A DNA stretch of 61,087 nucleotides from Ignavibacteriota bacterium (GTDB lineage Bacteria > Bacteroidota > Ignavibacteria > UBA10030). Of this stretch, positions 20,179 to 38,170 are shown piece after piece; positions within the stretch are counted from its first letter, which is position 1, and every line of letters begins with the position of its first letter. A program made the position numbers and the translations under genes. The stretch lies in contig PMZI01000050.1 in NCBI GenBank assembly GCA_003170475.1, positions 1-61,087 of the forward strand, written 5' to 3'. The notes below the pieces were generated by a model. That model saw only the letters and a program-made list of their open reading frames with translations. It was not told the origin of the DNA and did not search any database.

Positions 20179-21039
20179 CTATTTCAAAAACTCCGGTTGC
20201 CATTTCATCGTTATCCCTGTGGCTTCGGATGAAGAATACAATCCGAATGAGATGTTTTTGTCCTGGAAACGATGCAGTTCGGGAATAAGTATGCCGCACA
20301 GCGCCCCTACTCCGATGCCAACCATGATATCGGAAGGAAAATGCTGGAGCGCTCTCACTCTAAAATATCCCAAAATAAGAGGAGGAATGGTCGCGGCTCC
20401 ATACAAAAGATACTTGTTGTCCCCTATTTCAGGATGGTAATCACTGTAGACTTTCACCAAAAAGAACGTGGAAGCCGCGACAACGGCGACATGGCCGCTG
20501 TAAAACGAATTCCGGTTATTGCCTGTTTGTCTCTGGGCATTCGTAAGTTGATCATAGTAAGCCGCTGGACGGATTCTGTTTTGGAACGTAGGCCCGAGAG
20601 GACTCCATTCATAAATATTCGGTGTGATAGACATGGTTTCCATATACATGAGGAGCACGTCAGACCAATCCTGCCTGATCCGTTTATCAAACAGAAGCAA
20701 AACCGGAAGAACGACACTCGTCGCAACGGTGTAATCTGAATAATTGGCGAAGGAATTGAAGTTGGAGACGTCTTGCCTCAACGCCCAGCTATCGATACCG
20801 TTGATAATACCTCTGTTCAACGCCTGTAGTTCCAAAAGAGATACCTCTTCTTTGCCCAACACCCTTGTCACACCCAGGTAATTTGTCGTTAATCCAACGC
20901 CGATGATAGTCCCTGTCACCCAATAATTGATGTGATAGGGATGAAACGAAGAATCATTTGCAGGCTGGGGATACGCGAGTTGGGCTACACAGATGCCCAG
21001 GAGAGCAAGGATGACGAATTTGCGCCGATAAGTTTTCAT
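20179..21039 (-). CDS. PAP2-family phosphatase (divergent fourth copy)
   Basis: 286 residues with an N-terminal signal/anchor (1-24) and several hydrophobic helices. The three PAP2 motifs are present: NRIRPAAYY (Arg-Pro of motif 1), NSFYSGH (motif 2 with the SGH histidine) and FRVRALQHFPSD (motif 3, His and Asp kept; the residue before Arg is Phe instead of Ser). PAP2 enzymes remove phosphate from lipid pyrophosphates and phosphatidates on the outer face of the membrane. It differs clearly from the three tandem copies at 24046-26842. It probably forms a unit with the LysE gene. Confidence 0.88.
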   Translation of the reverse strand: MKTYRRKFVILALLGICVAQLAYPQPANDSSFHPYHINYWVTGTIIGVGLTTNYLGVTRVLGKEEVSLLELQALNRGIINGIDSWALRQDVSNFNSFANYSDYTVATSVVLPVLLLFDKRIRQDWSDVLLMYMETMSITPNIYEWSPLGPTFQNRIRPAAYYDQLTNAQRQTGNNRNSFYSGHVAVVAASTFFLVKVYSDYHPEIGDNKYLLYGAATIPPLILGYFRVRALQHFPSDIMVGIGVGALCGILIPELHRFQDKNISFGLYSSSEATGITMKWQPEFLK

Positions 21040-21135: not shown

Positions 21136-22242
21136 TCACTTTTTCTTTGGCCTCGCAGGATGTATTCCTTCTTCCGACACTTCGAGAATACTCTCAGGGG
21201 ACTTTTCCGACCCGAGTAAGACCGCTATCCAAAGGGTGCTTTCATTGCTTTCAAAGGCAAACTTCAGACTCATGGTGATGGGTACGCAAAGAACCACACC
21301 GATCGGACCAAGCAGGCCACCCCAAAGCATGAGGGAGAGAAAGACAACCAACGTCGACAGTCCGAGTTCGCGCCCCATGAGCCGCGGTTCAATCATGTTT
21401 CCGAGCGTGAAACCAACGACAAGATAACCGGCAGCGGCAAGCGCGGCGGTTCCCGGGCCAAGTTGAAGGAGCGCCAGCAGCACTGCAGGGATGGCAGCCA
21501 GGATCTGACCCAGATTGGGTATGTAGTGAAGCAGAAAGGCTACGAAACCCCAGAGAATGGGAAAATCCACGCCGAGGAAGTACAACCATAATCCTATAAT
21601 TGTCCCCGCCATGAGACTGATGATGGTCTTGATGATCATGTACCGTCTGATATCATTGACGAACTTTGTGACCTGGGGAAAGTTGCGCTGAGGATCACCC
21701 AGTACAGAACGGAGCTTGATGGGGAAGCTCGAGGCCTCGAGCAAAATGAATGTCACTGTGAGCAAGACGAGGATGATATCCGAAAGCACTGAGCCCAGTC
21801 CAGCGAAGAAGCCAGCGACTATGCTGATCACCGAGCCGGGATTGAGATATTCGGCCAAGACTTTTTCGGTGACGAGCACATGCTTCGTTGCCAACAGGGA
21901 CTTCAGGGCTAACACTTGCTCGTGCATGCGGGCCTGATAGAAAGGCAAGACCTCGGAAAAGGTGTTGAGAGATGATCCTATGACTGCCGCAATCACCAAC
22001 AGAAAAGTAATCATGACTCCTACAACGATCATCACTGCTGCAAAAGAAGGAACGTGTTTCCGTTCCAAAAAGAGTACCGGTGGCGTTCCAATGAGGGCGA
22101 GAAAAATCGAGACAAGGCACAATGCAACGACCGACTGGGACAGACTGATGCCATAGATGATGATCGCGATCGACGCCGCAACGACGAGGAGGCGCGTTCC
22201 GCGAAAAGAACTGCTTGGTAAACTCAGAATTGTCTTGATCAT
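21136..22242 (-). CDS. AI-2E-family transporter
   Basis: 368 residues with about seven membrane helices in the AI-2E (TqsA/PerM) arrangement: two N-terminal pairs, a soluble insert (~95-150, FYQARMHEQVLALKSLL), and a C-terminal block with GFTLGNMIEPRLMGRELGLS, the family's most conserved segment, followed by GGLLGPIGVVLCVPI. Members export small molecules or act as Na+/H+ exchangers; the family name reflects one member only. The ATG overlaps the TGA of the upstream CDP-alcohol phosphatidyltransferase in an ATGA tetranucleotide, so the two are translationally coupled. Confidence 0.93.
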   Translation of the reverse strand: MIKTILSLPSSSFRGTRLLVVAASIAIIIYGISLSQSVVALCLVSIFLALIGTPPVLFLERKHVPSFAAVMIVVGVMITFLLVIAAVIGSSLNTFSEVLPFYQARMHEQVLALKSLLATKHVLVTEKVLAEYLNPGSVISIVAGFFAGLGSVLSDIILVLLTVTFILLEASSFPIKLRSVLGDPQRNFPQVTKFVNDIRRYMIIKTIISLMAGTIIGLWLYFLGVDFPILWGFVAFLLHYIPNLGQILAAIPAVLLALLQLGPGTAALAAAGYLVVGFTLGNMIEPRLMGRELGLSTLVVFLSLMLWGGLLGPIGVVLCVPITMSLKFAFESNESTLWIAVLLGSEKSPESILEVSEEGIHPARPKKK

Positions 22243-22841
22243 AACTTTTTCAGTTTCAAATCAGAAATCATTGCAACCGCCGAGACAAAATAGAAGATCA
22301 CAAACCAAACGAGATGTTCCTGAACGAAGAGATATCCAAGGAATGCAATCGTCGATACGGCTGAGGCAGCTAAGACGGTCGGAATGCCCGTGAAGCCCTT
22401 TTGTTTGTATGCTGTGAAATACGCCAGTCGGATTGACGCTGCGCCGACATTCATAAACCCTGCGACGAGCATGGCAATACTGTTTATCCCTACAAACCAT
22501 CCGAATACCACCGACGCAGCCACTGCCATGAAATCCGTAAAACTATCGAGGTAGACACCCAACGCTCCTCCGCCGATTGCTCTCGCCAGCCTCCCGTCAA
22601 AATAGTCCAGGAGGAATTGCGTAAGGATAAGAACGTATGCAACAACCAGAACTCCTTCGAACGAAAAATAGACCGAGAAAGAAACGCACAGAAGGCCCAC
22701 AAGAGTAAGCAGATCCGGCCAGCGTCGCGTGCGGAGTTGTTTGAACATCAAGCTCTTCCCGGGATTGGTTTCCACAACCGCAGGTTGCTCAAGCGCATTT
22801 CTGTTCTTGTCAACCTGCGGATTCAATCCATGTTCCAGCAT
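22239..22841 (-). CDS. CDP-alcohol phosphatidyltransferase
   Basis: 200 residues, six membrane helices. The catalytic signature is intact: DYFDGRLAR followed by GVYLDSFTD, giving DGx2AR, G, D and D that bind the CDP-alcohol and divalent metals. It makes a phospholipid head group (phosphatidylserine, phosphatidylglycerophosphate, or a related ester); the acceptor cannot be told from sequence alone. First gene of a coupled pair with the AI-2E transporter. Upstream sequence GGTACGGAA weakly supports the ATG at 22841. The first ~30 residues are soluble and may be an artefact if a later start (MFKQLRTRRW, residue 32) is used. Confidence 0.9.
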   Translation of the reverse strand: MLEHGLNPQVDKNRNALEQPAVVETNPGKSLMFKQLRTRRWPDLLTLVGLLCVSFSVYFSFEGVLVVAYVLILTQFLLDYFDGRLARAIGGGALGVYLDSFTDFMAVAASVVFGWFVGINSIAMLVAGFMNVGAASIRLAYFTAYKQKGFTGIPTVLAASAVSTIAFLGYLFVQEHLVWFVIFYFVSAVAMISDLKLKKL

Positions 22842-22870: not shown

Positions 22871-23407
22871 TTAGTTCTTATCGGATTTGTTGTTGCGCCC
22901 CTTATCTTTGCCATTGCCATTACCGTTTCCATTGCCGTTGTCATTACCATTATGTTTGCCATTGTCATGCTTCTGTTGCTTCACCCAGTTGTTGTGCTCG
23001 GGGTGATTCTTGTTGACAAAGTACTTCTCCTCGCGGCTGTCGCGGATCGACTGCTGATCGTGACGTCCTTTGAATGAGGCGTACTGAGCCCTGTACTTTT
23101 CAGCATTTCGATACGGTGTCCGCTCATTCACCACTACCTTGTAAGAGTTATACATGTCAAAACCACGATACCGTGAAGGCAACGATGATCCGCTCACCCA
23201 ACGTCCTCCAGAACTGTAGAAATACCTCTGCTGAGGAACATTGTAGTAAACATCAATGTCAGGCATGTAGTAATACTCAACATGATCATAACCAGTCGGA
23301 CCCCAGACTGGTTGACGATCTACATTGAAACCAAGACTAATACTCAACTGTGCATTCAAAGTGCTTGACAACAGCACTCCCGCAATCAAAATAAGTAGAT
23401 AGCGCAT
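22871..23407 (-). CDS. Small secreted protein with Asn/Gly/Lys-rich tail (tandem paralog 2)
   Basis: 178 residues from the ATG at 23407, which follows AAGGAG and opens a clean signal peptide, MRYLLILIAGVLLSSTLNAQ. Mature core ~25-145 contains PVWGPTGYDHVEYYYMP and VYYNVPQQRYFY, then SSLPSRYRGFDMYNSYKVVV. After HPEHNNWVK comes a low-complexity Asn/Gly/Lys tail. About 65% identical by eye to the next gene, so a recent tandem duplication; the tail distinguishes them. Family not recognised, probably periplasmic or outer-membrane associated. Confidence 0.8.
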   Translation of the reverse strand: MRYLLILIAGVLLSSTLNAQLSISLGFNVDRQPVWGPTGYDHVEYYYMPDIDVYYNVPQQRYFYSSGGRWVSGSSLPSRYRGFDMYNSYKVVVNERTPYRNAEKYRAQYASFKGRHDQQSIRDSREEKYFVNKNHPEHNNWVKQQKHDNGKHNGNDNGNGNGNGNGKDKGRNNKSDKN

Positions 23408-23477
23408 ACTGTTTCTCCTTCTGTTTTGAACGTGATCATAATGAACCCGATCCCGACTTGTCGGGATTGCGACCATT

Positions 23478-23975
23478 TCAGTTCTTTCGTTCAGGTTGGT
23501 TATCGCGATTCGTTTTTTTGCTGTTCCGCTTCTCCTGCTCTTGCTGCCGCACCCAGTTATTATGCTCGGGGTGGTATCTGTTTACGTAGTACTTTGTATC
23601 ACGGCTGTCGCGAATGACCTCCTGATCGTGGCGCCCTTTGAACTGGAGATATTGTTCTCTGTGAGCTCTATTGTGTTCATACGCCCGAGGTTCATTCACG
23701 ACCACTTTGTACGAATTATACATATCAGCACCGCGGTAGCGGGAAGGAAGCGATGCCCTGCTGATCCAGCGTCCTCGTTCATTGTAGTAATACCTCTGCT
23801 GAGGTACATTGTAGTAGACGTCCATGTCAGGCATGTAATAGTATTCGACATGATCATAACCAGTCGGACCCCAAGCCGGTTGACGATCCAGATTGAAGCC
23901 AAGATTGATACGCACCTGTGCATCAGCAGTGCTCAAGAAGAGCACTCCCAAGATCAAGACAAGTAAATAACGCAT
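23478..23975 (-). CDS. Small secreted protein (tandem paralog 1)
   Basis: 165 residues from the ATG at 23975 (AAGGAG upstream, signal peptide ending TADAQ). The core repeats its neighbour: GPTGYDHVEYYYMPDMDVYY, LPSRYRGADMYNSYKVVV, FKGRHDQEVIRDSRDTKYYV, HPEHNNWVRQQ. The C-terminus is a short charged tail (EKRNSKKTNRDNQPERKN) instead of the Asn/Gly repeat. Both paralogs have their own ribosome site and 70 nt between them, and lie next to the PAP2 array. Function unknown. Confidence 0.8.
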   Translation of the reverse strand: MRYLLVLILGVLFLSTADAQVRINLGFNLDRQPAWGPTGYDHVEYYYMPDMDVYYNVPQQRYYYNERGRWISRASLPSRYRGADMYNSYKVVVNEPRAYEHNRAHREQYLQFKGRHDQEVIRDSRDTKYYVNRYHPEHNNWVRQQEQEKRNSKKTNRDNQPERKN

Positions 23976-24045
23976 GATGGTTCTCCTTCGATAGTGAACA
24001 TGATTGTGGTTGACGTCTTTATGTTTTCTGTGCATGAGTTTTGCG

Positions 24046-24882
24046 TTAGTCCAGTGCAATGCTGATGGTCAATGGAAAGAGGGAAGATACCTGGATCCGG
24101 CGTTCCACTTGTTCATGTTGATCCACCACCCAGGTGGCAGTACAATAACCGAGTGCTGCACCGAGAAAATCATCGGATGTCCAATGACGATCTTGGTACA
24201 CTCGAGAGACGAATGTGAGTGAGGCTGGTACGTAGGCCAGTATTTTGAGCCAAGTCGGCCCGGCGTTCCTTGACAAAGCGGTGGACAAGGCGAATGCGAT
24301 GACATTGTGTCCTCCGGGCAGCGACTGATAGTCTTGTTGAAAAGAGAACGAAGAGGCTGAAAATGAATGAAACGACTTGGGTCCCTCATTCATGTACGGT
24401 TTGGCCCTGCCAATGGCGATATTCATGAGTTTGTCAACCGCTCCGGCATAGAGCAACGACTGGCCGACTTCGTAAGCTGTTTTCCTCGCCCCCCTGTCCC
24501 CTGTTATCAGGGAATAAGTGGCGAAACCGGCGAAGATCAGTACCGGCGGAGGGAGTTCTGCCCACATCCTGCCGCCTTCGATCGGAACGCTCAAGTAGTA
24601 TCTCTGATCCTTGGTTATCCAATTGCGAATTGGCTGATCGACTTGCATGAGAAGAAAGGTCCCGGCGCCAACGGCGCCGAGTTTCAGCCAATCATTCCCC
24701 TCCCATCTGATCGGTTGCGTGAAGAATTCAACGGTCTCACGTCCAAACTGGGCAAAGTTATACCTGTTCCCCCGTACCACTTCCGGTGAATCGAGATCCT
24801 GCGCGACAAGGCCGGAAACTCCATAGGGAGAAAGGACGCATATCAAAGTGAGAAGGAGTGATGGAAGAAATCTATGCCGCAT
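24046..24882 (-). CDS. PAP2-family protein, tandem copy 3 (motif 1 altered)
   Basis: 278 residues with signal peptide (ending LVAQ) and the same architecture as its two upstream neighbours: NRYNFAQFGRETVEFF, then a helical PAP2 core. Motif 2 is LPGGHN, and motif 3, SRVYQDRHWTSDD, is complete with the His and Asp. Motif 1 reads NIAIGRAKP, where the paralogs read KSAFGRARP or KSIIGRARP: both the Lys and the Arg that hold the phosphate are replaced. It may have altered specificity or reduced activity. Ends with SSLFPLTISIALD, a tail shared with the copy at 26033. Last gene of the array. Confidence 0.88.
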   Translation of the reverse strand: MRHRFLPSLLLTLICVLSPYGVSGLVAQDLDSPEVVRGNRYNFAQFGRETVEFFTQPIRWEGNDWLKLGAVGAGTFLLMQVDQPIRNWITKDQRYYLSVPIEGGRMWAELPPPVLIFAGFATYSLITGDRGARKTAYEVGQSLLYAGAVDKLMNIAIGRAKPYMNEGPKSFHSFSASSFSFQQDYQSLPGGHNVIAFALSTALSRNAGPTWLKILAYVPASLTFVSRVYQDRHWTSDDFLGAALGYCTATWVVDQHEQVERRIQVSSLFPLTISIALD

Positions 24883-24932
24883 GAGGATATCCTCTTTTTC
24901 TGTTCATTCCGTGCTGAAGCAGCGACGATGAT

Positions 24933-25154
24933 CTATTTACGCATCAAGATGAAAATGCCGGCGGCGATGGCCAGTATCCCAAGAATCGCTCCCAGGCCGT
25001 TGAAATACACAGCTGGGACAAGTGCTACGAGACCCGAGACGACGAGCCAGATGCCCAGCAGCAACATCCCTGTGTTCTTTGTGATTTCCATGGATATGTT
25101 CCTTTCGTTGTGAGTTGGTTGTGACTCTTTTTTTTCGTTTGGTGTTTCCGTCAT
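24933..25154 (-). CDS. Small two-helix membrane protein
   Basis: 73 residues from the ATG at 25154, with AAGGAG 8 nt upstream. A second start at 25091 (MEITKNTGML, 52 residues) also has AAAGGA upstream, so two forms are conceivable. The first 21 residues are polar; the remainder is two hydrophobic helices, TGMLLLGIWLVVSGLVALV and GLGAILGILAIAAGIFILM. It lies between two PAP2 genes on the same strand. Family resembles small DUF3185/DUF-type envelope peptides, but I do not recognise it with confidence. Confidence 0.65.
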   Translation of the reverse strand: MTETPNEKKESQPTHNERNISMEITKNTGMLLLGIWLVVSGLVALVPAVYFNGLGAILGILAIAAGIFILMRK

Positions 25155-25172
25155 GATTCATACTCCTTAGCT

Positions 25173-26027
25173 TCAGTTAATGACAAAACTAATACTCAAG
25201 AGAGGTGTGCTTGACGTGCTTGGATCCAGCTTATCGCCTTTCTCGTGCGTATCGACAACCCATTTGGCGACAAAGTAGCCGAGCGTCGCGCCGACGAAGT
25301 TACTCGAAACCCAGTGTTTGTCTTCATACACTCGGGAGACCGGAGTAATTGCGGCAGGCAAGTACGCCAGAATTTTCAACCATGTTGGACCGGCATTCCT
25401 GGAGAGAACAGTGGAGATAAGAAACGCAGTGGCCGTATGTCCACCGGGAAAAGAATGATAATCGTCATCAAATGTGAATGGGTGATAGCTGTCTGAACCT
25501 TCGTTCATGAATGGTCTCGCCCTGCCGAACGCGCTCTTCAATACGTAGGTAATTGCACCCGTATAGAGTGCGGCCTGTCCGATTTCATAACCGATTTTCC
25601 TCGTCGTCATATTATGCGTGATCAAAGAATGAGCAGCAAAGCCGGCAAACAGCACAATTGGGGAATAGATCTCTCCATATATTCTCCCCGCCTCAATCGG
25701 TATGCTGTTGAGATAACTTTTGTCCTGCTGAGAGAAATCTCGCACTGGTTGGTCAACAGCTTCCATAAGGACAAATGACCCCACACTCACTATCCCAAGC
25801 TTGATCCAATCGTTTCTGTCCCATTTCGACGGTTGCTTTATGAAACTCCCGGTCTCATCTCGGAACTGAGCGAAATCGTATTTGTTCTGTGCGAGAAGAG
25901 GAGATCCACAGATGATCACTACGGAGAATGACAGGAGAATCATCCGGCACGTAGTGTTCCAGCACCCTCTGCCACAGAAGAACATCTGTTTTGAGATTTT
26001 ATGCAATGTCGAGCTTGGAGTCATCAT
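25173..26027 (-). CDS. PAP2-family protein, tandem copy 2 (motif 3 Asp lost)
   Basis: 284 residues as annotated. The N-terminus is uncertain: the ATG at 26027 is used here, but starts at residue 15 or 28 would give a more regular signal peptide ending PLLAQ. Motif 1 (KSAFGRARP) is intact and motif 2 is FPGGHT. Motif 3 reads SRVYEDKHWVSSN: the His is kept but the Asp of the His-Asp relay (present as SD in both sister genes) is Ser. The copy is therefore predicted to be impaired or altered in the phosphoryl-transfer step. Starts 5 nt after the stop codon of the copy at 26033. Confidence 0.85.
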   Translation of the reverse strand: MMTPSSTLHKISKQMFFCGRGCWNTTCRMILLSFSVVIICGSPLLAQNKYDFAQFRDETGSFIKQPSKWDRNDWIKLGIVSVGSFVLMEAVDQPVRDFSQQDKSYLNSIPIEAGRIYGEIYSPIVLFAGFAAHSLITHNMTTRKIGYEIGQAALYTGAITYVLKSAFGRARPFMNEGSDSYHPFTFDDDYHSFPGGHTATAFLISTVLSRNAGPTWLKILAYLPAAITPVSRVYEDKHWVSSNFVGATLGYFVAKWVVDTHEKGDKLDPSTSSTPLLSISFVIN

Positions 26028-26032
26028 CTTGC

Positions 26033-26842
26033 CTAGTTGAGAGCTATACTGATAGTGAGCGGGAACAGCGACGACACGTGAATTCGCGATTCCTTCTGTT
26101 CATGCATATCGACGACCCAAGTGGCAACAAAATAGCCGATTGCACCGCCGAGGACGTTATCAGATGTCCAATGCCAATCTTGATACACTCGAGAGATTGG
26201 AGTGATGACAGCTGGCAAGTACACTAGTATCTTCAACCATGTTGGCTCAACATTTCTGGAAAGAACAGTGGAAATGACAAACGCAGTGGCCGTGTGTCCT
26301 CCGGGAAGAGAATGATAATCGTCACCAGTCAGGGTGAACGAATGATAAGTCGCTCTCCCTTCGTTGTCATGTGGCCGCGCTCTGCCAATAATAGATTTCA
26401 ATGTGAGCACAATGGCGCCTGTATAGAGTGAGGCTTGTCCGATTTCATAAGCGATTTTCCTCGTCGACATATCATTTGCTATCAAAGAATGCGCAGCGAA
26501 CCCGACGAAAAACACCACCGGGGAATAGAGTTCTCCATACATTCTGGCTCCCTCAATCGGTACGCTGTAGAAGTATCTTCCATTGTCTCTCAGAACTGCA
26601 TTGCGGATTGGGTTATCCGCCTGCATCGCCAAAAATGTTGCGCCGCTCATGACCCCGAGTTTGAGCCAATCAGTGCCGTCCCATTTGGTTGGTTTTATCA
26701 GGAAGTCAACTGTCTCATGACCGAATTGAGACAAATTGTATTTATTCCTATCCACGGTATCGCGTGAAGCAAGATCTTGCGCGAAGAGAGAAGATTCACA
26801 GATGAGGATTAGAAAAAGGGCCGAATGGACGATAGACTTCAT
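26033..26842 (-). CDS. PAP2-family phosphatase, tandem copy 1 (all motifs present)
   Basis: 269 residues with signal peptide (ending SLFAQ) and a GAGGAG site before the ATG. All three motifs are present: KSIIGRARP, LPGGHT and SRVYQDWHWTSDN. The serine of the usual PSGH is Gly here, as in the two sister copies. It is the first gene of a three-gene tandem PAP2 array, all with the N-terminal NKY-x-QF-x-ETxxF signature and similar helix order. Predicted to dephosphorylate lipid or isoprenoid phosphates in the envelope; substrate unknown. Confidence 0.9.
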   Translation of the reverse strand: MKSIVHSALFLILICESSLFAQDLASRDTVDRNKYNLSQFGHETVDFLIKPTKWDGTDWLKLGVMSGATFLAMQADNPIRNAVLRDNGRYFYSVPIEGARMYGELYSPVVFFVGFAAHSLIANDMSTRKIAYEIGQASLYTGAIVLTLKSIIGRARPHDNEGRATYHSFTLTGDDYHSLPGGHTATAFVISTVLSRNVEPTWLKILVYLPAVITPISRVYQDWHWTSDNVLGGAIGYFVATWVVDMHEQKESRIHVSSLFPLTISIALN

Positions 26843-26949: not shown

Positions 26950-28641
26950 TTACTTATTGTGCGCGAAGTCAGCAAAATAGAATGTCAGAAACAGTGACTG
27001 TTGCGTGTACACTCTATTCGTCGTGGGGAAATCGCGTAAATATCTGTTTTCATAATAGATTCGATGTTCAAATCCAACCCCGACAATACTGAAGAGGTGG
27101 AATTCAATCCTAGGTTTTATGATCCCCATGTAGTTATTCCCTGACAGACCGACGAACGTATTGATCCAATAATAGTATCCCAACAAGGTTGCGCTGAACA
27201 CTCCGTCGACGTTCAGCGTAATAGCACACTTCGCCTGAGCTCCGCCGCCAAAATTATAGTCTCTCACCTGGGAAGTATCCGGTCCTCTCTGTGTCGAGTT
27301 GCCCGCAAAAGGTATTGCGGCAAGATGAGCATCGACGTACAGATTCGTCCCCTTGGCGATCGGCAGCATCGAAATGATACCGCCTCCGAACGACATCGTG
27401 CACAGTTCGAAACCTTCATTGTCCCAATAATCAAAATGTTGAAAGAGCCCGACAAGCGTCTCGGCGTTCCCCACTTTGCCATTTGTGCCCGTGAGAATAC
27501 CATACCCAATGACATTGTCGACGAATTTTCTACCCAGTCCGAAATTCATGTCGGCCCGCAGTTGAAAGTAGTCGTACGGCTTCCGATATCTTTTCTCGAA
27601 CGGGTTTCCATAGTCAAAATCAGCGTTCATAACAACTCCGGTTGGTCCGGTGCCGAAGGATCTTGCGTCATTCACCACGACGCCACCGAGCGAGACAACA
27701 ACATCAAGCGGTTCCTTTTGATACACCTCTTCCGTATTAACCCTGAACATTTTCCCGTTCATAAATCTGGTCAAAGCTCTGCCAGGACTCACAAGAAGAG
27801 CGAGGAACTCCCTGCCGAGCCTTTCTGATCCGACGGTTCTTTCATCGAGAAGATTTGAAGAGACTCGATACAATACTTCGCCGGCGAACATGCCACCGAG
27901 AGTTGTAGCAATTAGATCGTTCCTCTCTGGTTGACGCGTGGGCCCGCCATTCTCTCCGAACAGCTTGTACATATATGCCCCGCCGAATACAAATATCGAC
28001 GACTCCCAGAAGTTATATCCGGTCGCGCGTGCCGAATTAAAGTAGCCCCCGCCTGTATAAGGGTGCAGGAAGAAGTTATTGCCAAATCTATCATTGTCCC
28101 ATTTCCATCCATTGTTCCAGGGGAAGCCGGATTTCAAGGCAGTGCGATTCCACGAATTGAATCCCACGACCGCCCAATCATATCCAATGACGTAGTGATC
28201 GACCAAGTTTACGAGCGTATTTTGTATCAAGACCTTCATGATCGGCTGCCACAACGGGGCTTTCTTGTTATAGATTGGGTCATCATTGAGCAGACCGCGG
28301 TACATGTTGTAAATGTGCGCAGTCGAGTCCTGGACTAGAATTTTCTTGTAGCTCGTATCCGTGGGGACAACATTCGTCTTTACATTGGTTTCCTCAATGT
28401 GCTGTTTTGTCGAATCCGGGCTCGGATTGTCTTTCTTGACCTCGTTCGTGTCCTTAAGAGCATTCTTCAACTTGGCCAGCGTATCCAGTCGGAAATGGTC
28501 CGTCGAGATCATCTGGTAGGGTTGTTGATGCTCCCCGATTGCAGAACTGGACCTCGATGGTCCATCGTCCCTCGCAAGGTCCTGCGCTTGAAGCAACCCA
28601 GAAAACACTATCGAGAGAACCATTATGTATGCAATTTTCAT
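26950..28641 (-). CDS. DUF3943-family outer-membrane protein
   Basis: 563 residues with signal peptide (1-19, ending LLQAQ). Residues ~30-110 are polar and probably unstructured. From ~180 it carries the DUF3943 pattern: WKWDNDRFGNNFFLHPYTGG, YNFWESSIFVFGGAYMYKLF, NDLIATTLGGMFAGEVLYR and LLDERTVGSERLGREF. The rest is aromatic strands of a barrel, ending FYFADFAHNK. No known enzyme activity; family members are outer-membrane proteins found with PAP2-type or lipid genes. It lies just upstream of the three PAP2 genes on the same strand. Confidence 0.85.
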   Translation of the reverse strand: MKIAYIMVLSIVFSGLLQAQDLARDDGPSRSSSAIGEHQQPYQMISTDHFRLDTLAKLKNALKDTNEVKKDNPSPDSTKQHIEETNVKTNVVPTDTSYKKILVQDSTAHIYNMYRGLLNDDPIYNKKAPLWQPIMKVLIQNTLVNLVDHYVIGYDWAVVGFNSWNRTALKSGFPWNNGWKWDNDRFGNNFFLHPYTGGGYFNSARATGYNFWESSIFVFGGAYMYKLFGENGGPTRQPERNDLIATTLGGMFAGEVLYRVSSNLLDERTVGSERLGREFLALLVSPGRALTRFMNGKMFRVNTEEVYQKEPLDVVVSLGGVVVNDARSFGTGPTGVVMNADFDYGNPFEKRYRKPYDYFQLRADMNFGLGRKFVDNVIGYGILTGTNGKVGNAETLVGLFQHFDYWDNEGFELCTMSFGGGIISMLPIAKGTNLYVDAHLAAIPFAGNSTQRGPDTSQVRDYNFGGGAQAKCAITLNVDGVFSATLLGYYYWINTFVGLSGNNYMGIIKPRIEFHLFSIVGVGFEHRIYYENRYLRDFPTTNRVYTQQSLFLTFYFADFAHNK

Positions 28642-36772: not shown

Positions 36773-38170
36773 TCACTTCACAAGGATCAACTTCTTCGTC
36801 GATACGAACGACCCGGCTTCGAGGCGGTAGAAGTATACGCCGCTCATAAGATCGATCGGTTCTTTGCCGGTCCCAAAAGGCACCGTGTAGCTGCCGGCTT
36901 CCTGATAGCCGTTCACGAGCGTGGCGACTTCATTGCCGAGGATATTGTACACTTTGAGGGAAACCTGACCAGCCTTCGCAAGACCATATTGGATCCTCGT
37001 GGATGGATTGAACGGGTTCGGATAATTCTGATCCAATTCAAACGCAACTGGCACAGTCGATGAAGTCTGCTCGACAAACGTCGCAATTCCAGTGCCGACG
37101 GTAAATCCCGACGGCAATGAGGCTGATCCGCCACCCGAGGTCAAGTTGGTTACTGTGACCGTGCGCGCGCCAGCGATTGCCGCGGACGCTACGGTGATAT
37201 CTGCAGTGATCGATGTCGGACTGTTTACGACCGTACTGTTCACGGTAACACCAGCACCAAAATCCAACATGGTCACTCCAGTAGAAAAATTTGAACCAGT
37301 CACAACGACTTTAACACCGACACTGCCACGATTGACGGTAGTAAGTGAGACGGCCGTTATTGTCGGCATATTAAATGCAGTCGATGAGGATCCAGGATCA
37401 GTAACAGCGTTCGCGTCTAACGTGACTGCAGTCTGTGCCAATGCTCTCCCATTGAATGATGCCCCTGTGCTAATCGCGATATTTGTCTGACAGAGGACGA
37501 TTCCACTCATTGCAGCAGTCGTTCCAACAGTGACCTTGCCGGACACCTGCCAAAAGATGTTAGCAGCCTGGGCACCACCGCTAAGATTCACAGCAGCACC
37601 GTTAGCCACGACCAGATCTTGCGCTATTTGGAAGATCCAGACATCAGTGGAACTGCCAGATATGGTAACACCGCCAGCAGAGACCAGGACCCCTGTACCC
37701 CACTTGTAAACACCGCGGGTGAGGGTCTTCCCCGTAAGATCTCCGGCATACAATTCAACAAAATTTGATGATCGTCCAGCTGCGTCTGTAAATGCAGTCC
37801 CCATGTCACCGATGGCCGTAGTCATCTTCGCCGGAGTTGGAGTTGTATAGTCAGAAGCATATGCTCTTCCAGTAACCAAAGAGGATGTAGCAAATGTGTT
37901 CGAGGCATCTTTGATCAATCCAAATCCCGTCATGTAAGTCGCGGCCACCGGACTGACGCCAATATCTCCGGTAATATGGGTGACACCAGTGGTTGAAATT
38001 CCTGATTGTGCCAAAACCACAAAACTGCCGGCTGTTCCAAGAGTCACCGGGTACGGCGACGGTTGAGACAAGGCAATGGCTGGAATCATCAAAGCAACCG
38101 TCAGAATCGCTCCGAGGAGAAGCGTCCATCGGTCTAAGGTGCCTGTTGTGTGTGTTGAACAAGTTTTCAT
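36773..38170 (-). CDS. Ice-binding-fold (DUF3494) protein with IPT domain and type IX sorting tail
   Basis: 465 residues. Signal peptide ends AIALSQ. Residues ~42-270 are a DUF3494 beta-helix: LGTAGSFVVLAQSGIS, HITGDIGVSP, GVYKWGTGV, GGAQAANIFWQVSG and IALSTGASFNGRALAQ-type turns (here IAISTGASFNGRALAQ). Residues ~275-365 are an IPT/TIG Ig-like domain (VTGSNFSTGVTMLDFG). After a linker come ELDQNYPNPFNPSTRIQYGL and an SGVYFYRLEAG tail, a clear type IX secretion sorting domain. DUF3494 members bind ice or serve as adhesins. A second copy of this fold ends the gene at 40418-43705. Confidence 0.93.
   Translation of the reverse strand: MKTCSTHTTGTLDRWTLLLGAILTVALMIPAIALSQPSPYPVTLGTAGSFVVLAQSGISTTGVTHITGDIGVSPVAATYMTGFGLIKDASNTFATSSLVTGRAYASDYTTPTPAKMTTAIGDMGTAFTDAAGRSSNFVELYAGDLTGKTLTRGVYKWGTGVLVSAGGVTISGSSTDVWIFQIAQDLVVANGAAVNLSGGAQAANIFWQVSGKVTVGTTAAMSGIVLCQTNIAISTGASFNGRALAQTAVTLDANAVTDPGSSSTAFNMPTITAVSLTTVNRGSVGVKVVVTGSNFSTGVTMLDFGAGVTVNSTVVNSPTSITADITVASAAIAGARTVTVTNLTSGGGSASLPSGFTVGTGIATFVEQTSSTVPVAFELDQNYPNPFNPSTRIQYGLAKAGQVSLKVYNILGNEVATLVNGYQEAGSYTVPFGTGKEPIDLMSGVYFYRLEAGSFVSTKKLILVK

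Follow-up and report, generated by a model that had tools for sequence, protein, structure and literature searches.

Enzymes of the PAP2 type act in carrier-lipid recycling and in membrane-lipid remodelling. A stretch of 61,087 nucleotides from an Ignavibacteriota bacterium (GenBank assembly GCA_003170475.1, contig PMZI01000050.1, positions 1 to 61,087), called the window here, carries three PAP2 genes in tandem, head to tail, on the minus strand at 24046-26842. All three open reading frames (ORFs) are open and all three products match the Pfam PAP2 profile, as a first-pass annotation made from the sequence alone had proposed. Identity to copy 1 is 58% for copy 2 and likewise for copy 3. Scores of 67.8, 67.3 and 50.7 bits against PF01569 (cut-off 27.2 bits) place the copies in the PAP2 superfamily by profile, an assignment that does not in itself prove phosphatase function. 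Against the SepP undecaprenyl-diphosphatase profile (NCBIfam NF047884) they reach 29, 26.2 and 29 bits, below its cut-off of 250. Across the source genome, 11 matches to PAP2 and a single one to DUF3943 were counted.

The full PAP2 motif is printed as KX6RP / PSGH / SRX5HX3D in PMC8800118 (this and the other papers cited by accession are drawn on in part of their text), and none of the three copies carries it: all have PGGH, copy 2 is without the Asp, and copy 3 is without the Lys and has Lys for Arg. Copy 1 reads K-x6-RP / PGGH / SR-x5-H-x3-D; the annotation had credited it with all motifs, which holds for Lys, Arg, both His and Asp but not for motif 2. Copy 2 reads K-x6-RP / PGGH / SRVYEDKHWVSS, with motif 1 kept and Ser for the charge-relay Asp four residues after the nucleophile His (H+4), and copy 3 reads N-x6-KP / PGGH / SR-x5-H-x3-D, with motif 3 kept and Asn and Lys for the motif-1 Lys and Arg; alignment confirms these two descriptions as first given. 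A second change in copy 2, missed by the annotation, replaces Gln with Glu three residues before the His (H-3). Copy 3 has an Arg immediately preceding the catalytic His (H-1), and a Lys at the third position ahead of the lost one. Coordinates are listed in Table 1.

Table 1. Positions of the PAP2 array, its substituted codons and associated genes in the window.
Feature	Position	Strand	Details
PAP2 copy 1	26033-26842	(-)	269 aa; Pfam PAP2 9.8e-19; Lys, Arg, both His and Asp present, but PGGH
PAP2 copy 2	25173-26027	(-)	284 aa; Pfam PAP2 1.5e-18; Asp to Ser at H+4, Gln to Glu at H-3
PAP2 copy 3	24046-24882	(-)	278 aa; Pfam PAP2 1.9e-13; motif-1 Lys to Asn, Arg to Lys; Arg at H-1
Codon of Ser242, copy 2 (place of charge-relay Asp)	25302-25304	(-)	sequence and alignment
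Codon of Glu235, copy 2 (three residues before nucleophile His238)	25323-25325	(-)	Gln there in 65/80 family rows
Codon of Asn154, copy 3 (place of motif-1 Lys)	24421-24423	(-)	sequence and alignment
Codon of Lys161, copy 3 (place of motif-1 Arg)	24400-24402	(-)	sequence and alignment
73-aa membrane-protein-like ORF between copies 2 and 3	24933-25154	(-)	weak DUF4064/DUF308 similarity, under Pfam cut-offs
DUF3943 (YfiM-Griddle lipocone) protein directly upstream of copy 1	26950-28641	(-)	Pfam 2.7e-28
CDP-alcohol phosphatidyltransferase, same gene row	22239-22841	(-)	Pfam 6.7e-11; homologues in G001, G003, G013, G028 and G031 clusters
Fourth, divergent PAP2 gene, same cluster	20179-21039	(-)	Pfam 5.9e-14; YSGH motif 2; without motif-1 Lys

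Copy 1 served as query against 61 genomes, of which 50 matched at E 0.001, and against 391 genomes of the class, of which 68 matched at E 1e-40; copy 2 was run against the order's set of 98 genomes, 15 of which matched at E 1e-50. Each of these counts includes the source genome. One hundred stretches were retrieved, and the family counts below refer to 80 rows of at least 190 bits; a row is termed complete if the Lys, motif-2 His and Asp are present, which says nothing on activity. The nearest arrays stand in metagenome-assembled genomes labelled Ignavibacteriae, Ignavibacteriales, Bacteroidetes or Bacteroidota. The Asp is lost in six of the 80 rows, from four genomes; its replacement is always Ser, and the Gln-to-Glu change at H-3 accompanies it in 6/6 copies. 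Loss of the motif-1 Lys affects five rows, from four genomes, with Asn, Asn, Ala, Gly and Ser in its place, and the motif-1 Arg is Lys in two rows. The nucleophile His and the motif-3 Arg are kept in 80/80 rows; the motif-2 His, changed in three, is present in all 11 altered (Asp-less or Lys-less) rows. Because it recurs in relatives, the substitution pattern goes beyond chance: where the annotation had suggested comparing related arrays, six Asp-less and five Lys-less copies came to light rather than random substitutions. The annotated PGGH is indeed present in all three copies but is common family-wide (41/80 rows, and 31 of the 66 rows with Lys, motif-2 His and Asp), and its column changes eight times on the tree, which rules it out as an array-specific defect. 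The three rows with a changed motif-2 His (L110, L108 and L114, from G142, G185 and G298_C58), each single in its run, have Asp or Glu there (PSGD, PSGE and SSGE); Aquifex LpxE likewise has PSGD in alignments with the family.

All 11 altered copies sit in six runs that also hold a complete copy: the window, G001, G003, both G030 arrays and G043_C18. Asp-less and Lys-less copies stand together in one array in three genomes (the window's, G001 and G003), a co-occurrence in keeping with the hetero-complex that the annotation had put forward, in which copies 2 and 3 would supply each other's absent residues in a shared active site. However, G030 has two arrays with an Asp-less copy and without a Lys-less one, and G043 has the reverse. 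The pockets of PgpB (PMC7413402, PMC11629553) and of human G6PC1 (PMC12264158) are described with residues of one protein; that these active sites are single-chain, with no second chain needed, is our own reading. Wunen does not need dimerisation for activity (PMC11471602). Furthermore, the motif-1 Lys of PgpB is dispensable for two substrates and its Asp is critical (PMC7413402), and the two losses therefore need not be halves of one function. The idea of complementary defects thus stands on weak ground, although human G6PC1 points the other way on the Lys and on Arg to Lys (PMC12264158), and a shared active site appears highly improbable.

The tree was built from 65 of 87 rows, those below 250 bits being dropped, with five trait columns excluded; copy-1 positions 1-30 were excluded from both tree and codon runs. 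The six Asp-less rows form one clade with support 100/99 (window copy 2, two in G001, one in G003 and two in G030), nested in a clade of 11 (98/99) in which the remaining five rows retain Asp. Four of these Asp-bearing sisters come second in a run of two copies (G013, G028, G031 and G012) and the fifth (G029) lies at a contig end; no genome in this set has both the Asp-less and the Asp-bearing form of copy 2. Asp to Ser is one change on the tree and Gln to Glu also one, in the same six rows. Only Ser242, Glu235 and Leu106 are uniform in these rows and absent from the 52 complete rows. Copy 1 belongs to a clade of nine rows (100/99), and four Lys-less rows (the window, two in G003 and one in G001) form another (97/79). 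The Lys-less copy of G043_C18 is a long branch placed apart from the latter; a single origin for all Lys losses was considered but not shown, with parsimony over all rows giving two changes. Each G030 array (contigs C70 and C84; L052 and L053) consists of a complete copy 1 and an Asp-less copy, and the two Asp-less copies fall in different subclades. One Asp-less copy of G001 (L046:4266-5183, on G001_C303) has a C-terminal tail and N-terminus like those of copies 1 and 3 when read by eye, which suggests recombination within the array.

Codon models give nonsynonymous to synonymous rate ratios (dN/dS, omega) of 0.18 for copy 1 (9 rows), 0.18 for Asp-bearing copy 2 (5 rows), 0.21 for Asp-less copies (6 rows), 0.29 for Lys-less copies (4 rows) and 0.078 for single PSGH copies (5 rows). 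With kappa fixed at 2.2 and the tree topology kept, omega=1 fits worse by 231, 102, 127, 55 and 296 log units in these groups, in the same order, and the models favour constraint over neutrality in all five. Within the Asp-less clade, 10/11 motif columns are invariant (the Ser column counted) compared with 51% of 239 columns (P=0.0056; the conservation P values assume independent columns), and the Lys, Arg, second motif-2 Gly, both His and motif-3 Arg are kept in 6/6 copies. Both altered clades are constrained, the Lys-less one less clearly so around the active site. If redundant tandem copies were decaying slowly and were open only through recent duplication and gene conversion, the slightly higher omega of the altered clades (0.21 and 0.29 compared with 0.18), the various replacements of Lys (Asn, Asn, Ala and Gly) and the unlike C-terminal tail of the first G001 copy, which by eye looks as after recombination between copies, would be expected. 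But neutral evolution fits both altered clades far worse, the Asp-less ORFs are open in 6/6 copies across two genera at dS 0.44 to 0.99 in the four lowest-dN pairs, and the Asp-less clade keeps its motif residues more than other columns. Decay is thus improbable, and the earlier preference for specialisation gains from the recurrent losses, from the Asp-less clade and from dN/dS well below 1 in both altered clades.

AlphaFold2 models were built from 23 sequences each (mean predicted local distance difference test scores, pLDDT, of 65.8 for copy 2 and 59.6 for copy 3), and the copy 2 model was used in the fold search. It aligns best with YodM (Z 17.0, 3.3 A, 185 residues), LpxE (Z 15.7) and G6PC1, with PgpB (8bm3) at Z 11.2, so that the comparison with PAP2 structures suggested by the annotation points to a PAP2 helical fold for the modelled copy 2. 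Foldseek alone found no match to the copy 2 model at E 0.001 (best 1.2e-03). A sequence-only PDB search with copy 1 returned one weak match, LpxE at 5.4e-05, and a 23-row profile returned LpxE at 3e-08 and YodM at 0.0084 among 7 matches up to E 10. The N-terminus of each copy is hydrophobic and signal-peptide-like in a hydropathy scan, and membrane insertion is likely on family membership. The array proteins resemble the PAP2 lipid phosphatases E. coli PgpB, B. subtilis YodM and Aquifex LpxE in Pfam match, motif order and the helical fold of the copy 2 model; they differ in the signal-peptide-like N-terminus, in having PGGH in place of PSGH, in their tandem arrangement and in the presence of Asp-less or Lys-less variants.

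Gaps in the array measure 5 bases between copies 1 and 2, 18 between copy 2 and the 73-aa ORF and 50 between that ORF and copy 3; the DUF3943 gene ends 107 bases from copy 1. Among family runs whose upstream sequence spans 1.5 kb or more, a DUF3943 homologue is next upstream in 24/55, comprising 17/23 runs with a PGGH or PAGH copy compared with 7/32 PSGH-only runs. G001 and G003 have the same gene row as the window: DUF6600, sll1863-like, DUF3943, PAP2 copies, small ORF, signal-peptide-like protein, CDP-alcohol phosphatidyltransferase, AI-2E-type transporter and fourth PAP2. Homologues of the 73-aa ORF after copy 2 occur in G001, G003, G030_C84 and G031. In the family of the fourth PAP2, the motif-1 Lys is absent from 16/16 members (by eye; one of the 16 is cut after motif 1). 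DUF3943 corresponds to YfiM-Griddle, for which an outer-membrane role has been suggested and in whose operons PAP2 is named among the phosphoesterases (PMC12419801); the DUF3943/PAP2 association itself is therefore already known. Like these lipocone operons, the window has its DUF3943 gene directly upstream, beside phosphoesterase genes, whereas neither a PAP2 array nor an altered PAP2 active site is mentioned for them in the consulted part of PMC12419801. Two adjoining, similar short ORFs with signal-peptide-like starts (22871-23476 and 23478-24059, minus strand) are without a Pfam match and have homologues in several clusters. Elsewhere in the window, a minus-strand gene at 36773-38170 encodes an ice-binding-like domain with a Por secretion tail.

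With a probability of about 0.5, we read the locus as a set of duplicated genes for envelope PAP2 lipid phosphatases, in which specialised copies, each acting alone, stand beside the more complete copy 1. The changes recur, are constrained and are bound to lineages, which argues for specialised copies. From the observed sequences, recurrence, clades, selection, gene neighbourhood and PAP2 fold of copy 2, we infer the localisation, membrane insertion, substrate and activity of these proteins, the role of Glu235 and a role for copy 1 as the general-purpose copy. The array would work beside the DUF3943 lipocone and the CDP-alcohol phosphatidyltransferase, probably in lipid head-group turnover. 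Copy 2, with Asp to Ser and Gln to Glu, would keep its phosphate pocket and nucleophile His with a rewired charge relay, and would thus be expected to be slow or substrate-restricted or to hold its phosphoryl intermediate. Copy 3 would keep the His/His/Asp set with a changed motif-1 grip on the phosphate or head group, leading to altered selectivity or weak activity. Each copy would be its own unit and not a complementary half.

Mutants of characterised relatives bear on these predictions. On C55-PP and PGP, in that order, PgpB variants have the following percentages of wild-type activity: K97A 118 and 298, R104A 2.0 and 0.4, S161A 0.14 and 0.03, H163A 27 and 0.09, R201A 25 and 0.3, D211A 0.07 and 0.1, and H207A none (PMC7413402). 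Tong et al., as reported in PMC7413402, obtained 50% on PGP for D211A and under 10% on lyso substrates for K97A, the latter fitting a selectivity role of the motif-1 Lys. In human G6PC1, K76N, S117A and R170Q abolish activity, and R83K and K76R eliminate hydrolysis and also lower expression (PMC12264158). By analogy with PgpB, the Asp loss of copy 2 would be the heavier one; the Lys loss of copy 3 would be neutral or selective by PgpB and fatal by G6PC1. Tolerance of Lys loss in PgpB for two substrates and the absence of this Lys throughout the fourth PAP2 family count in favour of specialised copies. PGGH is widespread in the family, and an adapted pocket is therefore probable, to which the PgpB residue tables would transfer only in part.

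Several observations weigh against specialised, active copies. PgpB is deprived of about 99.9% of its activity when either the Asp or the PSGH Ser is lost (PMC7413402), and copy 2, and even copy 1, may be poor enzymes; by both PgpB and G6PC1, PGGH would harm copy 1 too. The substitutions K76N and R83K, each of which abolishes G6PC1 (PMC12264158), are the very ones of copy 3, which may be impaired. Motif conservation in the Lys-less clade (9/11 columns compared with 55%, P=0.059) is not clearly above background, and this clade, in which the lost Lys is Asn, Asn, Ala or Gly, has the highest omega of the copy clades (0.29). Beyond the N-terminal peak, 19-residue hydropathy peaks of the three copies are just 0.67 to 1.42, and membrane insertion is therefore not certain. 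The Asp and Glu changes share one branch, which gives no statistical handle on their coupling. His238 lies between helices 215-236 and 240-267 of the copy 2 model, with Glu235 and Ser242 on different helices; the model therefore does not show a plain exchange of position between the carboxylates. Asp and a Glu at H-3 stand together in 8/50 further PAP2 rows (by eye; motif 3 is readable in 48/50, with Asp in all 48, several rows being truncated and one gene interrupted by unread bases); this Glu is therefore not tied to Asp loss, and a strict coupling is weakened. The Arg at H-1 of the four clustered Lys-less rows occurs in four Lys-bearing rows too, and the Lys-less copy of G043 has Tyr there, which makes a moved positive charge only a guess.

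Some of these points would fit a different outcome of duplication, in which copies 2 and 3 would be pseudoenzymes that have given up hydrolysis yet continue to bind lipid phosphates, with a regulatory, scaffolding or localising role towards copy 1 or the DUF3943 protein. Such roles would parallel vertebrate PRG/LPPR proteins, which have catalytic-domain substitutions, are without enzymatic activity and form multimers (PMC11471602). Like the array, these inactive LPP relatives are LPP-family paralogues with substituted catalytic residues beside active ones; unlike them, the array is tandem in a bacterial gene row, keeps most catalytic residues and has one motif changed per copy apart from PGGH. 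Further support for pseudoenzymes comes from the damage done by Asp loss in PgpB (PMC7413402) and by K76N and R83K in G6PC1 (PMC12264158). All 11 altered copies also have a more complete copy in their run, and most phosphate-pocket residues other than the lost ones are retained. Further catalytic residues are often lost in pseudoenzymes, but here the nucleophile His and motif-3 Arg are universal in the family rows and no altered row has lost its motif-2 His. The dispensability of the PgpB Lys for two substrates (PMC7413402) also speaks against inactivity. Pseudoenzymes are the strongest rival to specialised enzymes, although we hold this possibility to be somewhat unlikely.

A bolder version of specialisation would make the Asp-less clade a PAP2 variant fixed in its lineage, in which the acid has been relocated (Glu at H-3 for Asp at H+4), and the clustered Lys-less copies a variant with the positive charge moved to Arg at H-1, so that the operon would combine one ordinary and two rewired active sites tuned to different envelope lipids that the DUF3943 lipocone would make accessible. 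This proposal is doubtful. Charge-relay rewiring by Glu235 is attractive but unproven, as it would be confined to one clade and Glu at H-3 is also seen with Asp present, and the simplest form of it, a swap from Asp at H+4 to Glu at H-3 on the same helix, is unsupported since the copy 2 model breaks the helix at 237-239.

As judged from sequence, the array is real and recurrent; it belongs to a known kind and, within the reach of the literature search, adds a new detail, and its function is predicted. Among the open-licence full-text papers listed, none describing bacterial PAP2 arrays whose active sites are altered came up, which does not prove their absence. The locus adds an array form to the DUF3943 lipocone operons, and DUF3943 is named in just 2 of the papers covered. 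Two PgpB studies disagree on how much the relay Asp matters (PMC7413402), and PgpB and G6PC1 disagree on the motif-1 Lys (PMC12264158). Neighbouring paralogues that differ in exactly these Asp and Lys residues, with Asp-bearing sisters in close relatives as controls, provide a natural set for a direct test.

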